From positions 1 to 64,000 of the forward strand of contig NZ_CAKJTL010000133.1 of the NCBI RefSeq assembly GCF_917627385.1: DNA of 64,000 nucleotides. The letters are read 5' to 3'. The notes under the pieces were generated by a model. It saw nothing but the letters and a program-made list of their open reading frames with translations, was not told the origin of the DNA and searched no databases. A program made the position numbers and the translations under genes. The stretch is from Protofrankia sp. CiT1. GTDB taxonomy: Bacteria > Actinomycetota > Actinomycetes > Frankiales > Frankiaceae. Of this stretch, positions 3,872 through 13,165 are shown piece after piece (the first letter of the stretch is position 1; every line of letters starts with the position of its first letter).

Positions 3872-3956
3872 CGAGGAACAGCACAGAGGAACAGCACAGA
3901 GGAACAGCACAACCGCGGCCGGCCCTCCCCGCGTCAGGACGTCAGGACGTCAGGCC
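3872..3956. repeat. Two tandem microrepeats between murG and the aminotransferase gene
   Basis: Three exact copies of a 13-base unit GAGGAACAGCACA occupy 3872-3910. Three copies of an 8-base unit GTCAGGAC, the last imperfect, occupy 3933-3956 and run into the 3' end of the aminotransferase gene. These look like replication-slippage repeats. No regulatory role is evident. Confidence 0.8.
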
Positions 3957-5185
3957 CGCGACTCGAGGGCCGCGGCCGCGGCGTCGGACAGCCGGCGGGC
4001 GGCGAGCTCAAGACGTTCCGGGGAGCTGCCCGCGAATGACATCCGCATCGTCGTGGAGTCGGGATTGTGCACAGCGAACTGCGGACCGGACACGTAGGTC
4101 ACCCCGCGGCGGACCGCGGCGTCGAGCAGGTCGTCCGCGGACAGGCCGGGCGCGACGACCCGCCCCCAGACGAACAGCCCGCCAGCGGGATCGTTGACCT
4201 CGACAATCCCCGCCAGATGCTCGCTGATGGCGGCACGCAGAGCCGCGCACCGCCGTCCGTAGATGGCCGGCAGGGTCGCCAGGTGCGCGTCGTACCAGCC
4301 CTCCCGGCCGAAGAGCTCAAGCAGGGCGTACTGCGTCAGCGTGGAGGTATGCAGGTCCGACCAGAGCTTCGCGCGGCCTACCGCGTCCACGAGCGCGGGC
4401 GGCACCAGCACCCAGCCGACCCGCAGCCCCGGTCCGAGCGTCTTGGAAAAGGATCCGATCGTGATGACTCGATCACCATAGGTGGCAACCGGTGGCACGG
4501 GATCTCCCCGGAAGCGCAGTGCCGGGTACGGCTCGTCCTCGGCCACCAGGAACCCGTACCGCTCGGCCAGCTCCGCGAGTTGCCGCCGCCGGGCATCGGT
4601 GAGCGTGGCCCCGGTCGGATTATGGAAGGTCGCGACCGTGTAGACGAGTTTGGGACGCTGGCCGCCGGCCAGCCGTTCGGCGAGCGCGCCGACATCCAGG
4701 CCGTCGTCGTCAACCGGGATCGCCAGGAACTCCGGCTGGTACATCTCCAGGCAGTGCAGGGAACCCGGGAAGACGGGCTCGTCAATGGCTACAAGATCCC
4801 CGGGGTCGAGCAGGGCACGCGCGATGATGTCCAGGCCCTGCAGCCCACCGGCGGTCACCACGACCTGGCTCGGGTCGACCGGGCGCCCACGGTCCACCGA
4901 CGCCCGGTCCGCGATCCAGGCGCGCAGCGCGGGAAGGCCCTCAGCCGCCGAGTACTGCAACGCGGCCGTCGCTGCCTTCGAGGTCGCCACCTGGTGCACG
5001 GCCGCACCGATCTCCGCCGCGGGCAGTGTCTCCCCGGCCGGCAGCCCACCAGCGAGCGAGATGACGTCACGGACCTCGCCGAGCCGCAGCGGGTCACGCA
5101 TCACCCACGTCCCGATCTCACCCATCCGCCGGGCGAGCGGAACCGGCCCCGGCAGGATCGCCTCGACCGACTCGCTGTCGCTCAT
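3950..5185 (-). CDS. PLP-dependent aminotransferase, 2-aminoadipate/MocR-like class I-II
   Basis: A 411-residue fold-type I aminotransferase of the LysN/aminoadipate group. Seen are the substrate segment ISLAGGLPAGETLP, the PLP-phosphate region VVTAGGLQGLD, HNPTGATL, DEPYPALRF and the Schiff-base Lys in GSFSKTLGPGLRVGW. The ATG at 5185 is chosen because GGAGG sits five bases upstream; longer frames lack this. Relatives transfer amino groups between 2-oxoglutarate/glutamate and varied acids, and the substrate cannot be read from sequence. The position between ftsW and murG is unusual for a dcw cluster. A role in glutamate or stem-peptide amino-acid supply is possible, but that is inference from position only. 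Confidence 0.9.
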   Translation of the reverse strand: MSDSESVEAILPGPVPLARRMGEIGTWVMRDPLRLGEVRDVISLAGGLPAGETLPAAEIGAAVHQVATSKAATAALQYSAAEGLPALRAWIADRASVDRGRPVDPSQVVVTAGGLQGLDIIARALLDPGDLVAIDEPVFPGSLHCLEMYQPEFLAIPVDDDGLDVGALAERLAGGQRPKLVYTVATFHNPTGATLTDARRRQLAELAERYGFLVAEDEPYPALRFRGDPVPPVATYGDRVITIGSFSKTLGPGLRVGWVLVPPALVDAVGRAKLWSDLHTSTLTQYALLELFGREGWYDAHLATLPAIYGRRCAALRAAISEHLAGIVEVNDPAGGLFVWGRVVAPGLSADDLLDAAVRRGVTYVSGPQFAVHNPDSTTMRMSFAGSSPERLELAARRLSDAAAAALESRA

Positions 5186-5337
5186 CCCATCCTCCACCCC
5201 TCGGCCGGGACGCCATTCGGGGAAAACTATCCTGGGGACGGCCAGCCGTGACAACGGCCCGGCCTTCGTGCGGCGCGGCCGGCGTCATGATTGTCGATCA
5301 TCTGTCACCCGCGGCGGGCGGCCGTCTCGGCATCGGG

Positions 5338-6693
5338 TCAACGGTGCGCGGCCGCGGAGATCCTCTCGGCAACGTCATCATCACCGCTGTCGCCGCGGCT
5401 GCCCCGGGCCACCCGCGCGCGGGCCCGGAAACGACGCCCGCCGCCCGCCGCCGGCTCACCTGCCTCCCGCGCCTCGCGCCGGGCTGCCGCCCTGGCACTG
5501 AGCATCGCGGTCGCCGCGGGCTCGTGCCGGGCGAACGACAGCAGCATCCCGACCGTGAGCATCGTGGGAACCAGCGCGGAGCCCCCGAACGAGACCAGCG
5601 GAAGCGGGATTCCCGTGATCGGGAGCAGGCCCACCACAGCGCCCATGTTAATCATGGATTGGCCAAGCAGCCAGCCGGTGGCGGATGCCGCGGCGAGCTG
5701 GACGAACGGGTCAGCGCTGCGGTGGGCGACCCGGATGCCGGCGAACCCGAGAACGGCGAACAGGATGACGACGACCAATGTGCCGAGCAGGCCCAGCTCC
5801 TCACCGATGATCGCGAGGATGAAGTCGGTGTGGGCGTTGGGCAACAGCCCCGGCCACTTCTCCCGGGACGCGCCGAGCCCCTCACCCCACCACCCTCCCG
5901 ACGCCAGCGCGTACAAGCCCTGGACCGCCTGGAAACCGGTGTCATGGGCATCGGCGAACGGGTCGCGATAGGACAGCAGCCGCTCGAACCGGTACGGCTC
6001 CCGGATGGCCAGGACGGTGCCAGCCAACAAGATCACACCGCTGATGGAGACAAAGACCCGCAGCGGCGTCCCGACCACCCACAGCAGCATGAGCATGATC
6101 AACAAAACCACGATCGTGGTCCCCATGTCGGGCTCAAGCATAATCAGGACGCAGATCAGCAACGCCCCGGGCACAAGCGGGACCAGCAGGTGCTTCCAGT
6201 CGCCCAGCAGCTTGCGTTTACGCACCAGCAGATCCGCGCCCCAGAGCACAAGGCCGAGCTTGGCGATCTCGCTGGGCTGCAGGGTGTACGAGCCCAACTC
6301 GATCCATCGCTGCGCACCGTTGATCGACTTCCCGAACTGCGGGGTCAGCACGACCGTCAGCAGTACCAACGAGACAATCATGACCGGGTACGCCAGTACC
6401 CGGAAGACCCGCACGGGCAGCCGGCTGGCCAGCACCAGCAGTGGCAGGCCGATGCCCACCCAGGTCGCCTGCCGGGCGAACACCGCGTAGGACGAGCCCA
6501 GCTCGTCGAACGACCGCACGCTGGATGCCGACAGCACCATGACCAGCCCGAGCAGCAACAGCAGGCCAGCCGAGGAGAGCAGCAGGTAGTAGGAGGCCAG
6601 CGGCCGCGCAAGCACGGGGACCCGGGTGCCGTCGACAGCCGGCCCGCCCCGCTCAGGCATACCGAGCGTGGGCTCGTCGCCCCCGGTCACCAC
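5338..6693 (-). CDS. ftsW: Septal SEDS glycosyltransferase FtsW
   Basis: A SEDS-family polytopic membrane protein that polymerises lipid II at the septum together with FtsI. The 451 residues show about ten hydrophobic segments. Motifs include INGAQRWIELGSYTLQPSE, LEPDMGTT (about 200), the YRFERLLSYRDPFAD loop, and a conserved NAHTDFILAIIGEELG/PLPLVSFGGSAL end. A basic cytoplasmic tail rich in Arg/Ala follows (about 395-451). The start is GTG at 6693 with GGGGAG six bases upstream; the next codon is also GTG. The gene heads a probable leftward group with the aminotransferase, murG and murC, with 152 bases to the aminotransferase start. Confidence 0.96.
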   Translation of the reverse strand: MVTGGDEPTLGMPERGGPAVDGTRVPVLARPLASYYLLLSSAGLLLLLGLVMVLSASSVRSFDELGSSYAVFARQATWVGIGLPLLVLASRLPVRVFRVLAYPVMIVSLVLLTVVLTPQFGKSINGAQRWIELGSYTLQPSEIAKLGLVLWGADLLVRKRKLLGDWKHLLVPLVPGALLICVLIMLEPDMGTTIVVLLIMLMLLWVVGTPLRVFVSISGVILLAGTVLAIREPYRFERLLSYRDPFADAHDTGFQAVQGLYALASGGWWGEGLGASREKWPGLLPNAHTDFILAIIGEELGLLGTLVVVILFAVLGFAGIRVAHRSADPFVQLAAASATGWLLGQSMINMGAVVGLLPITGIPLPLVSFGGSALVPTMLTVGMLLSFARHEPAATAMLSARAAARREAREAGEPAAGGGRRFRARARVARGSRGDSGDDDVAERISAAAHR

Positions 6694-7019
6694 GTCCCGC
6701 TCCCCTGCTCGTCAAGGAACACACATGCAACACGCCCACCGAGAGCACCGCCGGAGTCACGCGGTTCTTCTGGGTGAACGCGGTTATGGTCCCCCATCGA
6801 ATAGTCCATGCCGCCAGCCTGTTCGACACCGACCATCATGGGTGTGTCGAGCACACATCAGCCCGCCCGCGGCCTCCGGCCGGCATATACAACCCGACGG
6901 GGTCAAATCCTGACATAGTGTATGTGATCGGCCACTATCGTTACAACCGCTCCCCTCGGTCCGGTCAACGCCACCGACAACACCGATCGGGGGTCACGAC
7001 TCTGAGACGACACTGAACC
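6694..7019. promoter_or_regulatory. Divergent intergenic region between ftsW and the FAD oxidase gene
   Basis: This 326-base gap separates a leftward and a rightward gene, so it should hold promoters for both. The part near 6895-6950 is much more AT-rich than its surroundings, as expected of a promoter. I cannot assign convincing -35 and -10 elements. No gene is supported here. Confidence 0.4.
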
Positions 7020-8444: not shown

Positions 8445-8486
8445 ACTGTCGCGCGGTGGCGGCAGCTACTGTCGCGCGGTGGCGGC
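8445..8486. repeat. 19-base direct repeat at the 3' end of the MurD2-type gene
   Basis: Two exact copies of ACTGTCGCGCGGTGGCGGC lie at 8445-8463 and 8468-8486. The second copy encodes the last residues of the MurD2-type protein and the first lies just past its stop. This looks like a small tandem duplication of the gene end in the short gap between convergent genes. Confidence 0.85.
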
Positions 8487-9830
8487 GCAGGCCCGCATGG
8501 CGAGCGCGAAGGCGGCGCCACGCTCGCGGTAGTCACGGAAGCGCCCGAAGCTCGGCGCCGCGGGTGACAACAGAACGATGCCATCGGGCCTGGCCCACCG
8601 GTAGCCCTCAAGCACGGCGGCGGTGAGGTCAGGCGCGTCCACGATCGTGACATGCGGGCCGGCACCAGCCTCGGTGACCTGCCGGCGGATGTCGGGGCCG
8701 TTGTCCGGCACGGTGAGGACAAGTGTGTCCAAGGTGCGGGTGCGTAGACCAACGGCCAGCGGCCGGTAGTCGATACCCCGGCTCTGGCCGCCCACGACCG
8801 CGGCGATCCTGCGGTCACCGAAGGCCTCGACAGCGGCGAGTGTCGGCAGGACGTTGGTGGACAGGCTGTCATCGACGAAACAGACCCCGTCCACTTCTCC
8901 GATCACCTGGAGCCGGCTGTCCAGCCCGCGGAACCCCTCCGCCGCGGTACGCAGCTTGTCGCCGTCGTCCGCCTCGGGTACGCCGAGTGCCCGCAGACAG
9001 GCGCCGGCGATCAGGGCGTTACGCCGGTTGTGGAGACCGAGCAGCCCCAGCTGCCGCAGCCAGTCGCCGTCCGCCGCGGCGTCCGCACACACCCACCGCA
9101 CCCTGGGCCCGAGCAGCTGCCGGTGGGCGCGGATCAGGTCGCTGTCACCGTTGGCGATGGTGAGGTCGGCACCGGGCTGGGAGCAGGCGGACAGTTTGTC
9201 CCGAAAGTAGTTCTCCGGATCATCACCGTGCCATGGCAGGTGGTCGGGATGCAGCGAGGTGACAGCGACCACCGGCGGGGAGCACGCCAGGTCGGTCGCC
9301 TGGTAGCTGGACACCTCAATGATCCAGAAGTCGTACCCGTCGCCCGCGAACGGATCATGCGGTGGCATCCCGATGTTGCCTGCGACCAGGCACCGGTAAC
9401 CGAGTCGGGTCAGCAGGTGCCCGGCAACCGCGGACGTCGTGCTCTTGCCCTTGGTTCCCGTCACGCAGACCACTTTCGACCGGTCCGCCTCGGCGAGCCA
9501 CAGCCCCACTCCACCGACCACCGGCACCCCGAGCCGCTCAAGCTTTCGCACGGTCTCGCCGTACCGCGAAATTCCAGGAGCCTTGACAACGACATCACAA
9601 TGAGTGAGCGCATCGAAGCCACCCAGCGCGGTCACCAACAGTGGCCTGCCCTCGATGTCCGTCCGGGCGGGGGCGTCGTCAACGAGCACCGGCTCGATCC
9701 CCCGCGCCCGGCAGGCCCGCAGGTTGGCCTCGCCCTCACGGCCGATCCCGTACAGACCGACCGCGCGGCCACGCAGGTCAGACCAGGAGATCGTCGGGCG
9801 CATACCGGTCCGGGACGAAGTGTCGGCCAT
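8466..9830 (-). CDS. murD2: MurD2-type UDP-MurNAc-L-Ala--L-glutamate ligase
   Basis: A Mur ligase of 454 residues from the ATG at 9830, which follows AGGAG at about twelve bases; an ATG at 9803 is the alternative. It carries a Rossmann segment GLYGIGREGEANL, the ATP loop VTGTKGKSTTSA, EVSSYQATDL, SLHPDHLPWHG, a GLHNRRNALIAGA core and DDSLSTN in the C-domain. The divergence from standard MurD and the immediate partnership with a MurL-like gene identify it as the MurD2 type, known in Xanthomonas to add L-Glu rather than D-Glu to UDP-MurNAc-L-Ala. The gene overlaps the end of the murL-like gene by 53 bases, which suggests coupled translation. The L-Glu specificity is inferred from family and context. 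Confidence 0.88.
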   Translation of the reverse strand: MADTSSRTGMRPTISWSDLRGRAVGLYGIGREGEANLRACRARGIEPVLVDDAPARTDIEGRPLLVTALGGFDALTHCDVVVKAPGISRYGETVRKLERLGVPVVGGVGLWLAEADRSKVVCVTGTKGKSTTSAVAGHLLTRLGYRCLVAGNIGMPPHDPFAGDGYDFWIIEVSSYQATDLACSPPVVAVTSLHPDHLPWHGDDPENYFRDKLSACSQPGADLTIANGDSDLIRAHRQLLGPRVRWVCADAAADGDWLRQLGLLGLHNRRNALIAGACLRALGVPEADDGDKLRTAAEGFRGLDSRLQVIGEVDGVCFVDDSLSTNVLPTLAAVEAFGDRRIAAVVGGQSRGIDYRPLAVGLRTRTLDTLVLTVPDNGPDIRRQVTEAGAGPHVTIVDAPDLTAAVLEGYRWARPDGIVLLSPAAPSFGRFRDYRERGAAFALAMRACAATARQ

Positions 9831-11106
9831 GCGGGACGAGCAGCTCCTCGGGCGTGGGCTCTCCCGGTAGCGGGCCAAGCGCGGCGAGCACGGGCGAGGC
9901 GGCCCGGTCACGGCGCCCGGCGGCGAGCAGGGTAGCCACCCGGCACTCGGTGACGTCGCCGACGCATTCCCAGGGCTTGCTGTCCGCGGACAGGCCCAGC
10001 AGCGCACGGAAACGACCCAGCAACGCCACGTCAGCCAGTGGTTCACGCCCGCCGAAGACCTGCCGCAGCGTCGGCTCGTCCAGGAAGGGGGAAAGGATCA
10101 GATCGATGAAACAGCACTTGTCACACTGGCCGCACCAGCGGTCCAGCCGCTGAGCGGGATCGATGTGGAAAGCGCGGTTACAGCTGCGGAAGTGGTCGAA
10201 GTACTGGGGCAGCGCGGCGAACCGCCGGGCGATCCACAACTCCGTGAACGGGCGTAGCAGGGAGAAGTACTCCGGCCTGCCGCCGAGAGCCTCGACGAGG
10301 ACCGACCGCAGGGCGGTCTCGAACGCCTCGCCCTTGGAGTACTGGTGGTTGATGGAGCGGCCGTCGACCGTGATGGTGCCCGCGGAGGCCGACCACTCGT
10401 TGGACATCACCACCGCGTCCCGCCCGTCCAGCGCGGCGGCCATCACGGCGATCACCGAAAGAATTCCCGTGACCGGGACATGCCCGTTGAGGAAACCGAG
10501 TTCCGCCGAGCGCAGCACCTGGGTGTCGATGAGCCGCTCCGCCCGGAGGACCGGCAGGCCGGTGGCAGCGGCGGCCCGTTCGATGGCCTCGAAGCGGTCA
10601 CCGGGATGGTTGACGACAAACAGCGCCGGGTCCTTGGCCCGGGGGCGCAGCAGCTCCGCGGTGACGATGGAGTCCACCCCGCCGCCGAACGGCACCAGCG
10701 GCCGGCCCTCGTCGGGGCTGACAGCCACCGGCGTTTCGCGCGCCAGCGCCGGGCCGATGATCTGCAGCCCGGAAAGATCAAGATTGTTACGGTGCGCGAA
10801 CTCCCCCAGGCCGTCGAGATAGAACTCTCGCAGGAAGGCACGCTCGAGGCCGGTGACCGCGGTATCACCGAGGTCGACGACCGGCGGGGCCGCCGTCTTG
10901 TAGTAGGAGACCGCCGTCAGCAGGAACACCAGGCGGGCCGCTTCGGCCACCGCGGGCTCGCTCCATGCCCCGCCGCCGGGGAACGTCACGTCCTCGCGGA
11001 ACTCCCGCCCGTCCAGGCGGTAGCGGCACACGAGCCGGTCATACGACGGGTCGATGTCGTAGCCCACATAGCGAAAACTCTCGCCACGCCGCGGTGGCCC
11101 GATCAC
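9778..11106 (-). CDS. murL: MurL-type UDP-MurNAc-L-Ala-L-Glu epimerase
   Basis: This protein resembles MurL, which in Xanthomonas epimerises the terminal L-Glu of UDP-MurNAc-L-Ala-L-Glu to D-Glu using ATP and replaces free glutamate racemisation by MurI. Seen in its 442 residues are a PP-loop-like FGGGVDSIVTAELL at about 140-153, a VVMSNEWSAS segment, NHQYSKGEAFE, and a Cys-rich WCGQCDKCCFID near the C-terminus. The GTG start at 11106 shares four bases with the pgeF stop, and AAGGA lies six bases upstream. It sits directly between pgeF and the MurD2-type ligase, as expected for a dedicated stem-peptide route. The epimerase call rests on family resemblance plus this pairing. Confidence 0.85.
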   Translation of the reverse strand: MIGPPRRGESFRYVGYDIDPSYDRLVCRYRLDGREFREDVTFPGGGAWSEPAVAEAARLVFLLTAVSYYKTAAPPVVDLGDTAVTGLERAFLREFYLDGLGEFAHRNNLDLSGLQIIGPALARETPVAVSPDEGRPLVPFGGGVDSIVTAELLRPRAKDPALFVVNHPGDRFEAIERAAAATGLPVLRAERLIDTQVLRSAELGFLNGHVPVTGILSVIAVMAAALDGRDAVVMSNEWSASAGTITVDGRSINHQYSKGEAFETALRSVLVEALGGRPEYFSLLRPFTELWIARRFAALPQYFDHFRSCNRAFHIDPAQRLDRWCGQCDKCCFIDLILSPFLDEPTLRQVFGGREPLADVALLGRFRALLGLSADSKPWECVGDVTECRVATLLAAGRRDRAASPVLAALGPLPGEPTPEELLVPHGRHFVPDRYAPDDLLV

Positions 11107-11942
11107 AGAACGTCCTTCCCGCGCAGGCGGGCCACCGCGGCGAACCGTCCGCACGGGTTCTCCGCCCGGTGGCTGAAAAAGGGCGTGCCCGGACCGGTGC
11201 CCACCCCCGCGACGTGGATCTGACGTTCCGGCACGCCCTCGGCAACCAGCTGCATGACGTTCGCTCCGGCCACGTCAAACGTCCACTTCCCGAGCCCGTC
11301 GGCGCGGATCACCTCGTCCGCGCGCCCGTCGAAGGCGGCCCGGACGGCGGCCACGACCTCCGCCCCAACCTGGTAACGGTCCGGGTCGATCGCGGGCCCG
11401 ACACCGGCGACGACATTCGATGCGGCGGCGCCCAGCCGCCGCATGGCCGCCAGCGCCGCGGGGACGGCGCCGCGCACGGTCCCGCGCCAGCCGGCATGCA
11501 CACACGCGAGCACCCCGGCGACCGGATCATGCAGAACGGCCGGGACGCAGTCCGCCGCCAGGACAGCCAGCGCAATCCCGGGCGCCCTGGTCACAAGCCC
11601 GTCGGTCAGCGGCAGCGCGTCCGAGGCCGAACGGCTGCCCCGCCCACGGTGCTCATCGGTCACGATGGCGATATTCGGGCTGTGTGCCTGGGCGCAGAAC
11701 ACGAAGTCGTCCACGGTGGCACCGAGAGCCTCGGCCACTGTCGCCCGGTTCGCCAGTACGTCCGCGTCGTCGTCCCCGGCCCGCAGACTCAGATTGAGTG
11801 AGGTGTAGGCGCCGCGGGAAACACCGCCGGTACGGGTGGTGACAAAGACATCCACCAGCCGGTCATCAAAGCCCGGCCAGCACAGTACCTCCAGGCCGGA
11901 CGGTGTTCGGCGAAACCGCGATGCCGCCACGCCGGCAGTCAT
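11103..11942 (-). CDS. pgeF: Peptidoglycan editing factor PgeF (multicopper-oxidase-like, DUF152)
   Basis: A 279-residue DUF152 protein. In E. coli the homologue YfiH/PgeF hydrolyses UDP-MurNAc-L-Ser, correcting MurC errors. The metal site is visible as FCAQAHS, the ADCVPAVLHD segment and the strongly conserved CVHAGWRGTVRG; the C-terminal GTPFFSHRAE also fits. The ATG at 11942 is preferred to an upstream TTG because GAGG and GGAG lie just before it. In many actinomycetes pgeF follows ftsZ; here it heads a probable operon with the murL and murD2 types, so three precursor-modifying enzymes are grouped. The gap of 155 bases from mraY probably contains a promoter. Confidence 0.92.
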   Translation of the reverse strand: MTAGVAASRFRRTPSGLEVLCWPGFDDRLVDVFVTTRTGGVSRGAYTSLNLSLRAGDDDADVLANRATVAEALGATVDDFVFCAQAHSPNIAIVTDEHRGRGSRSASDALPLTDGLVTRAPGIALAVLAADCVPAVLHDPVAGVLACVHAGWRGTVRGAVPAALAAMRRLGAAASNVVAGVGPAIDPDRYQVGAEVVAAVRAAFDGRADEVIRADGLGKWTFDVAGANVMQLVAEGVPERQIHVAGVGTGPGTPFFSHRAENPCGRFAAVARLRGKDVL

Positions 11943-12097
11943 CTCCGACGACCTCGCCAGCTGTCGGCTCTCAACGTCCGGTACCGTCCGTTTCAACGTG
12001 GCTGGCCACTGATGTTAATCCATAACCGGAAACCCCGGGACAACATGGCGGACACCCCGCCACCACCGGCCGGGACCGCCTGCGTCGAGGATACACA

Positions 12098-13165
12098 TCA
12101 GGAACCACCGTGCGAGAGGAACTCCGCGTAGAACAGCCCGAGCCCGAACGCCACGGCGAGTCCGGAGACAATCCAGAAGCGGATGATGACCGTGGTCTCC
12201 GGCCACTCAGCCAGTTCGAAGTGGTGGTGGATCGGCGCCATGTTGAAGACCCGCTTCCGGGTGGCCCTGAAGAAGGCGACCTGAATGATCACCGAAAGCG
12301 TCTCGACCACAAAAAGCCCGCCGAGGACGAACAGCAACAACTCGGTCCGGCTGACGATCGCGATACTCGCGAACGCCCCGCCGAGGGCCAGCGAGCCGGT
12401 GTCACCCATGAATATCTTCGCCGGGCTCGCGTTCCACCACAGAAATCCGAAACAGGCGCCCATGGCCGCGGCCGCGACCAGCGCCACGTCCAGCGGGTCG
12501 CGGACGAAGTAGCAGCCGTCCTGCGCGGGACCGCGCCCGCAGAGATTGCCGAACTGCCAGAAGGAAATCACCACATAGGCGCCGAACACCATCGCCGAGG
12601 TACCGGCGGCCAGGCCGTCCAGCCCGTCGGTGAGGTTCACCGCGTTCGACGTCGCCGCAATGATTATCCAGGCGAGCAGCGGAAAACCGATCAAACCGAT
12701 CGAGAAATCGGTGTCCCGAACGATCGAAACAAACGTCGACCCCGGCAGCAGGCCGTTGGCGTTCTTGAAGCGGACGGCCAGCAGGCCGAATGCCAGCGCC
12801 ACCGCGGCCTGACCGGCGAACTTGGTCCGCGCGGTGAGCCCGAGACTGCGCTGCTTGCGGATCTTTATGTAGTCATCGAGGAAACCGACCATCCCCAGAC
12901 CGGTCATGACCAGTAGCACCAGTAACCCGGACGCGGTGAATCCGTTCATCGTGATCAGATGCGCGACGAAGTAGCCGGCCAGCGTCGCCAGGATGATGAC
13001 CGTGCCGCCCATCGTGGGTGTGCCACGCTTGGTAAGGTGGCTTGACGGCCCGTCCTCGCGAATTTCCTGTCCGTAACCCCGCCGGCGGAACAGGCGGATG
13101 ACCGATGGTGTGCCCAGCAGCGACGCCACGAGGGCTACCAGCGCGGCGACCAGTACGCCTCTCAC
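12098..13165 (-). CDS. mraY: Phospho-MurNAc-pentapeptide transferase MraY
   Basis: MraY makes lipid I by moving phospho-MurNAc-pentapeptide onto undecaprenyl phosphate in the membrane. The 355-residue protein has about ten transmembrane segments. Its catalytic motifs are intact: KRGTPTMGG at about 47, GFLDDYIKI at about 94, [15 protein letters not shown] at about 174, [20 protein letters not shown] at about 248 and the cytoplasmic [10 protein letters not shown] loop at about 309. The GTG start lies in a GTGA overlap with the murF stop. It is the last gene of the tightly packed ftsI-murE-murF-mraY run. Confidence 0.98.

Follow-up and report, generated by a model that had tools for sequence, protein, structure and literature searches.

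Organization of the Locus

The window analysed here is a stretch of 64,000 nt (G000:C133:1-64000; contig NZ_CAKJTL010000133.1) from the 5.02-Mb draft genome of Protofrankia sp. CiT1 (Frankiaceae; 191 contigs, rated 100% complete). Protofrankia is a plant root-nodule symbiont related to Frankia. Within the division and cell wall (dcw) cluster of the window lies a pair of overlapping genes, murL and murD2, predicted to encode an epimerase and a ligase which together would bring D-glutamate (D-Glu) into peptidoglycan. The genes and motifs concerned are as follows:

8466-9830 (-): murD2, ligase gene; TIGR01087, 249 bits; MurD2 grouping at 100/100; signature residues K127, S130, L323, R351, P426 and F428
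9438-9458 (-): ATP loop of MurD2, GTKGKST (canonical GTNGKTT); K and S shared by all 83 MurD2, N and T by all 32 canonical MurD
8862-8864 (-): Leu323 of MurD2, position of Escherichia coli MurD Lys319; L or I in all 83 MurD2, K in all 32 canonical MurD
8778-8780 (-): Arg351 of MurD2, position of E. coli MurD Lys348 and Xanthomonas oryzae MurD2 Arg358; R in 82 of 83 MurD2, K in all 32 canonical MurD
9778-11106 (-): murL, epimerase gene; NF041275, E-value 3.6e-95, 319 bits; all family-invariant residues present
10669-10686 (-): GGGVDS of MurL, residues 141-146, PP-loop (ATP pyrophosphatase) motif; G141, G143, D145 and S146 invariant in 62 MurLs
10114-10137 (-): WCGQCDKC of MurL, residues 324-331 (C325, C328, C331), probable zinc site with C309; invariant in 62 MurLs
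10177-10185 (-): SCN of MurL, residues 308-310; C309 would complete the probable zinc site as its fourth cysteine; invariant in 62 MurLs
11103-11996 (-): pgeF, YfiH-type UDP-N-acetylmuramic acid (UDP-MurNAc)-L-Ser amidase; PF02578, E-value 1.9e-68
12098-13165 (-): mraY, upstream dcw neighbour; TIGR00445, 330 bits
7020-8405 (+): glcD-like gene for an FAD-linked oxidase, in convergent orientation to murD2; PF01565/PF02913
6791-6852 (-): short probable remnant of the 3' part of the lost canonical murD, upstream of ftsW; 62 nt, 76% identity to Frankia alni murD, 41.9 bits
5338-6693 (-): ftsW, downstream dcw neighbour; PF01098, E-value 3.5e-102

The dcw genes of the window follow the order mraZ, mraW, ftsI, murE, murF, mraY, pgeF, murL, murD2, glcD (on the opposite strand), ftsW, an aminotransferase gene, murG and murC. 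The standard order in the relatives F. alni and EuI1c is mraY-murD-ftsW, and the pair therefore sits in the murD slot. The murL and murD2 genes overlap by 53 nt (9778-9830), and pgeF and murL by 4 nt (GTGA). The coordinates, strand, overlap and GTGA coupling to the upstream pgeF given in the initial annotation, made from the sequence alone, were all correct on re-reading, and its placement of the pair at the murD position of the dcw cluster agrees with the mraY and ftsW neighbours and with the gene order of the relatives.

Identity of the MurD2 Ligase

The product of 8466-9830 scores 249 bits against TIGR01087, which is over the 212-bit cut-off of this MurD family. In the relatives set, MurD2 proteins reach 199-296 bits and full-length canonical MurD proteins about 344-419 bits; proteins of the MurD2 type are able to pass the cut-off because NCBIfam holds no competing bacterial MurD2 model. 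The initial annotation had named a firm placement in canonical MurD as one outcome that would speak against it; the cut-off was indeed passed, but the score range and the diagnostic residues are those of MurD2.

The sites that differ between L-Glu and D-Glu enzymes were taken from published modelling and mutagenesis, in which E. coli MurD accepts L-Glu once it carries the K319T substitution (PMC8788868). At the sites of E. coli K348, A414 and L416, the window ligase carries the MurD2-type residues R351, P426 and F428, and Leu323 occupies the K319 site. The GTKGKS loop and Leu or Ile at the K319 site were found in 83/83 murL-linked ligases and in none of the 32 canonical MurDs, while Arg at the K348 site is present in 82 of the 83 MurD2 proteins and in 0/32 canonical ones. 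The position of E. coli D182 and X. oryzae E197 is occupied by Asp196; among the 83 MurD2 proteins, 44 have Asp and 37 have Glu there, and, as judged from this alignment, Glu at this site is not a family-wide feature of MurD2.

In the MurD tree, where all canonical rows are from Frankiaceae, MurD2 and canonical MurD are split with support of 100/100, and the window protein falls on the MurD2 side. Signature residues, profile scores and tree thus agree with the earlier assignment of a MurD2-type ligase. A reading of the gene as a diverged murD does not hold, since the tree and the murD remnants described below rule out its derivation in place from the resident murD and point to an acquired pgeF-murL-murD2/glcD block.

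Identity and Predicted Fold of MurL

The only NCBIfam match of the 9778-11106 product is MurL (NF041275, E-value 3.6e-95, 319 bits), with residues 9-398 aligned to positions 8-396 of the 447-position profile. At every column invariant across 62 MurLs, the window protein carries the conserved residue, and murD2 adjoins murL in nearly all of the MurL loci examined; the earlier reading of the gene as MurL-like is upheld by the profile match and by the invariant residues.

Two side observations concern the family as a whole. The 700-bit cut-off of NF041275 is tuned to Xanthomonadales: it excludes every actinobacterial MurL scored (about 210-474 bits), the Micromonosporaceae type included, and automatic annotation would therefore leave these proteins unnamed. 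In another actinobacterial family, MurL and MurD2 occur as a fusion within a single open frame of 861 aa (L088:8450-11035, minus strand).

According to reviews, MurL has no known conserved domains and an unclear mechanism (PMC5808125, PMC8788868). Pfam scans of the 62 MurLs yielded no family and only scattered noise, and a phmmer search of the window MurL against the PDB gave chance matches only. The AlphaFold model of the window MurL is of high confidence (predicted local distance difference test, 96.1; predicted template modelling score, 0.95). When this model was compared with the PDB by Foldseek, the best three matches were QueC (E-values from 1.5e-4 to 9.9e-4; probability, 1.00), and the next ones included MnmA, ArgG, TrmU and LarE; the template modelling score (TM-score) over the whole MurL query was 0.31. 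A profile search placed the PP-loop enzymes TtuA, TilS, TrmU and GMPS exactly on GGGxDS, a motif that aligns with SGGxDS. GGGVDS is located at residues 141-146 and WCGQCDKCC at residues 324-332 of the window protein, with key positions invariant in the 62 MurLs. The invariant cysteines C309, C325, C328 and C331 are patterned like the cluster of QueC (TCY..CGxCxAC). The profile-profile link between MurL and QueC (hhalign), for which a QueC alignment assembled for this analysis was used, is limited to columns around the PP-loop; the fold assignment therefore rests on the predicted structure, and no sequence homology beyond the PP-loop is claimed. A PP-loop fold of MurL with QueC as its nearest solved fold is thus supported by computation, and this model-based assignment is new. 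The initial annotation had noted both the PP-loop-like GGGVDS and the cysteine motif.

The MurL of X. oryzae uses one ATP, forms AMP and converts L to D only, presumably through adenylation of the alpha-carboxylate (PMC8788868, PMC5808125). A QueC-like fold with its cysteine cluster would therefore give a concrete basis to this known ATP-to-AMP chemistry. In the proposed mechanism, GGGVDS would bind the ATP phosphates, and the cysteine cluster, to which zinc is assigned by analogy, would hold it in a structural role. Adenylation of the Glu carboxylate would acidify the alpha-C-H, and the proton would be exchanged by invariant residues before hydrolysis; H209, H254, K70, K258 and E237 are guessed candidates for this exchange. 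By the same kind of analogy, the window MurL and MurD2 are expected to have the activities of the X. oryzae pair.

Search for Other D-Glutamate Routes

The following statements on absence refer to the draft assembly described above. The genome search detected no Asp/Glu-racemase domain (PF01177), and the glutamate-racemase search returned a single 33-bit fragment and no intact murI. No class-IV aminotransferase of the genome reaches the cut-off for D-amino-acid transaminase; those present are IlvE, a protein similar to branched-chain aminotransferases, and one without an NCBIfam match. No second murD was found in the genome either, the MurD2 gene being the single murD match. MurL-MurD2 is hence the only recognisable D-Glu route in the genome. 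The initial annotation, which had suggested that this is the main route and had called for a search for murI and canonical murD elsewhere, was in this respect too cautious: neither gene was found intact. A missed murI is unlikely because its remnant is consistent across the genus.

This remnant is a murI pseudogene (G000:C60:21788-22345) at the locus occupied by murI in F. alni ACN14a, with the same cysM-like and metallo-beta-lactamase-fold hydrolase/rph neighbours. It still starts with MSGAPIGVFDS and preserves one late block, has lost the segment with the first catalytic cysteine (VIACNTAS), and has PGCTRYP in place of LGCTHYP. DNA homologous to murI is found in 5/5 congeners, none of which has an intact murI, and the frame is decayed in the three that were read closely. 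The genomes of this genus are about 5.0-6.1 Mb in size, and those of the congeners are 81-92% complete. The ratio of nonsynonymous to synonymous substitution rates is 0.12-0.19 for murL, with values of 0.13-0.18 for the window gene against congeners, 0.19 for murD2 and 0.57 for the murI remnant; by this measure, purifying selection acts on murL and murD2, and constraint on the murI remnant is much weaker.

Traces of the canonical murD were also detected. Three congeners have matches of 58-67 nt to its 3' part between glcD and ftsW (57-72 bits), and 0/300 shuffles scored as high. A murD remnant was looked for in the Frankiaceae metagenome-assembled genome (MAG) G305 and was not found.

The pgeF-murL-murD2/glcD Block and Its Distribution

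The genes pgeF, murL and murD2 with a convergent glcD occur in the same order and on the same strands in other actinobacteria (L120, L125, L128), and the order pgeF-murL-murD2 recurs in many more actinobacterial MurL loci. Judged by this gene order, the pair appears to have arrived as a pgeF-murL-murD2/glcD block. The nearest relatives in the subclade of the window MurL are from Kineosporia (60%) and Acidimicrobiia, not from Micromonosporaceae. The pgeF gene of the block is the only one found in the genome. YfiH/PgeF removes UDP-MurNAc-L-Ser (PMC8844914), and the tight linkage of pgeF suggests that precursors may be proof-read before the costly MurD2 and MurL steps. In three congeners (L070, L071, L072), pgeF-murL-murD2 is inverted within the slot, opposite to mraY in L070 and L072 and to ftsW in L070 and L071; inverted and kilobases away from mraY, it must therefore be transcribed on its own there. 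A murL-murD2 pair between mraY and ftsW is also found in the unrelated G078 (L081) and in an alphaproteobacterial MAG (L189). Placement in the murD slot is thus rare but not unique, and it has recurred.

MurL is carried by 10/35 of the Frankiaceae genomes examined. In all 25 genomes without MurL, murI is present (above the TIGR00067 cut-off in 24, and split between contigs in one). Among the 10 MurL genomes, murI survives only as remnants in the five of the genus of the window, is absent from G305 and is shortened in G317, where murD is reduced to about 100 residues. In G321, MurI has ACA in place of ACN, and murD is down to its last ~72 residues. In G300 and G315, the catalytic ACN of MurI is changed to AGN, and canonical murD looks intact. 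Two MurL-bearing pairs outside the genus of the window show intermediate stages, one with murD reduced to about its last 100 codons and the other with the catalytic Cys of MurI replaced. MurL is strongly associated with the loss of intact MurI in the relatives set of 58 genomes (Fisher p about 1e-5), which are not independent lineages.

The G300/G315 pair (probable Parafrankia; L075 and L076 with L093, L094, L199 and L200) is an observation in its own right, as these genomes combine MurL-MurD2 and murD with a MurI that lacks the first catalytic Cys. They apparently represent an early stage of the replacement.

Comparison with Known Systems

The MurD2-MurL pathway was described in X. oryzae (XOO_1320/XOO_1319; Feng et al. 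2017, reviewed in PMC8788868), and Micromonospora and Salinispora have orthologues with demonstrated activity (PMC8788868); the occurrence of the pair in actinomycetes was therefore already known. The X. oryzae pair is specific for L-Glu, converts one ATP to AMP and epimerises in one direction (PMC8788868). The window resembles this system in its adjacent ligase and epimerase genes, the MurL family, the L-Glu-type residues of the ligase, and in that no MurI or D-amino-acid transaminase was found; it differs in that its pair lies at the murD position within the dcw cluster, as part of a block with pgeF and glcD. The window MurL also belongs to a different subclade, and decayed murI and murD remnants are visible. 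The replacement with visible remnants is new, while the pathway itself is not. No work joining MurD2 with Frankia was found in the open-licence literature searched.

MurL is like QueC in its predicted fold, the SGGxDS-like loop, the C-terminal CG-x-C-x2-C cluster with an upstream Cys, and, as far as the chemistry known from X. oryzae applies, the conversion of ATP to AMP with carboxylate adenylation. It differs from QueC in having an N-terminal part of ~130 residues and another substrate, and in epimerising this substrate, whereas QueC makes a nitrile; the sequence similarity is limited to the PP-loop. MurI and MurD of F. alni ACN14a serve the same metabolic step and yield the same final product, and murD has the same dcw position. 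In that organism, however, a cofactor-free racemase makes free D-Glu and a D-Glu-specific ligase adds it, while the window genome has remnants only.

Origin of the Pair and Alternative Explanations

Very probably, a transferred pgeF-murL-murD2/glcD block took the murD slot, the original murD and murI decayed, and the pair is now the sole D-Glu route. The block would have been acquired before murD and murI were lost. It is also likely, at a lower level of confidence, that MurL belongs to the PP-loop enzymes of the QueC type and apparently puts this fold to an unrecognised use, stereochemical inversion via carboxyl adenylation, and that MurL with MurD2, often accompanied by PgeF, forms a mobile module that displaced MurI and MurD at least twice, and probably three to four times, in one family, leaving graded remnants of murI and murD. 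Several observations weigh against these interpretations: the window ligase has Asp at the position of X. oryzae Glu197 (as do 44/83 MurD2); the window MurL misses the 700-bit cut-off of NF041275, as do the Micromonosporaceae members with 402-418 bits; the hhalign link to QueC covers 22 columns around the PP-loop only (probability 8.6%); the murI remnant can still be read as a single open frame; and the murD remnant of the window (41.9 bits) is borderline on its own, being no stronger than the best chance tile.

The 8466-9830 product might be an ordinary, diverged MurD that adds D-Glu obtained from the host, the medium or a promiscuous enzyme, with a MurL-like neighbour of some other function. 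The 249 bits against the 212-bit cut-off of TIGR01087, the Asp at the E. coli D182 position and the life of these organisms in plant nodules are in line with this explanation, but the protein lies inside the MurD2 clade and, except at the variable D182 site, is of MurD2 type at all sites that separate the 83 murL-linked from the 32 canonical ligases. Given, in addition, that murL overlaps murD2 and evolves under purifying selection, that murI is dead genus-wide and that Protofrankia coriariae has been cultured (PMC7231273), this explanation is very improbable. Production of a specialised D-Glu-containing metabolite by the pair, with an undetected route serving peptidoglycan, is still slightly less credible: elsewhere in the family the pair does occur outside the dcw cluster, once beside a radical-SAM-like gene, but in the window it is inside this cluster and coupled to pgeF, no other murD or D-Glu source was found, and the decay of murD and murI goes along with the pair.

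It is unlikely that MurL has a different fold and that GGGVDS and the cysteine cluster are coincidental. No Pfam family matches MurL, the hhalign link is weak and the whole-query TM-score is low (0.31), as such a case would have it; against it stand the high-confidence model with QueC as its top three structural matches (probability 1.00) and several PP-loop enzymes next, the independent profile search that places TtuA, TilS, TrmU and GMPS on GGGxDS, and the conversion of ATP to AMP, which is a PP-loop reaction. Vertical inheritance of the block in Frankiaceae, with loss in most members in place of several acquisitions, seems comparably doubtful. The approximately unbiased (AU) test rejected a single clade for all Frankiaceae MurLs (p about 2e-85), and canonical murD and murI are at conserved loci throughout the family; yet without the G300/G315 pair one clade was not rejected (AU p = 0.20). 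The rejection implies at least two acquisitions in Frankiaceae, and the best MurL tree needs four changes.

D-Glu addition is an essential step of peptidoglycan synthesis, with both MurI and MurD serving as drug targets. If a transferred block displaced MurI and MurD as proposed, this essential step was swapped more than once in a family of plant symbionts; likely donors, intermediates and remnants are at hand, and the order of events and its constraints are therefore testable, one example being the damage to MurI before MurD in the G300/G315 pair. The QueC-like fold offers a checkable mechanism for MurL and a structural start for selective inhibitors. The locus also adds a cell-wall fact on cluster-2 Frankia, in which, in the literature found, peptidoglycan genes were studied only for murC (PMC7231273).

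Other Features of the Window

The aminotransferase gene of the dcw cluster is the following:

3950-5254 (-): class-I aminotransferase gene between ftsW and murG

Congeners L070 and L073 carry it too, and no such gene was detected in those standard dcw clusters of Frankiaceae that were examined. Open reading frames opposite real genes (e.g., 5248-6777, plus strand) were rejected as genes; they match no family and represent GC-rich shadow frames. The genome contains two MurC-like genes, at G000:C132:28146-29111 (L004) and at 1178-2611 of the window, which match the murC1/murC2 pair of cluster-2 Frankia (PMC7231273).

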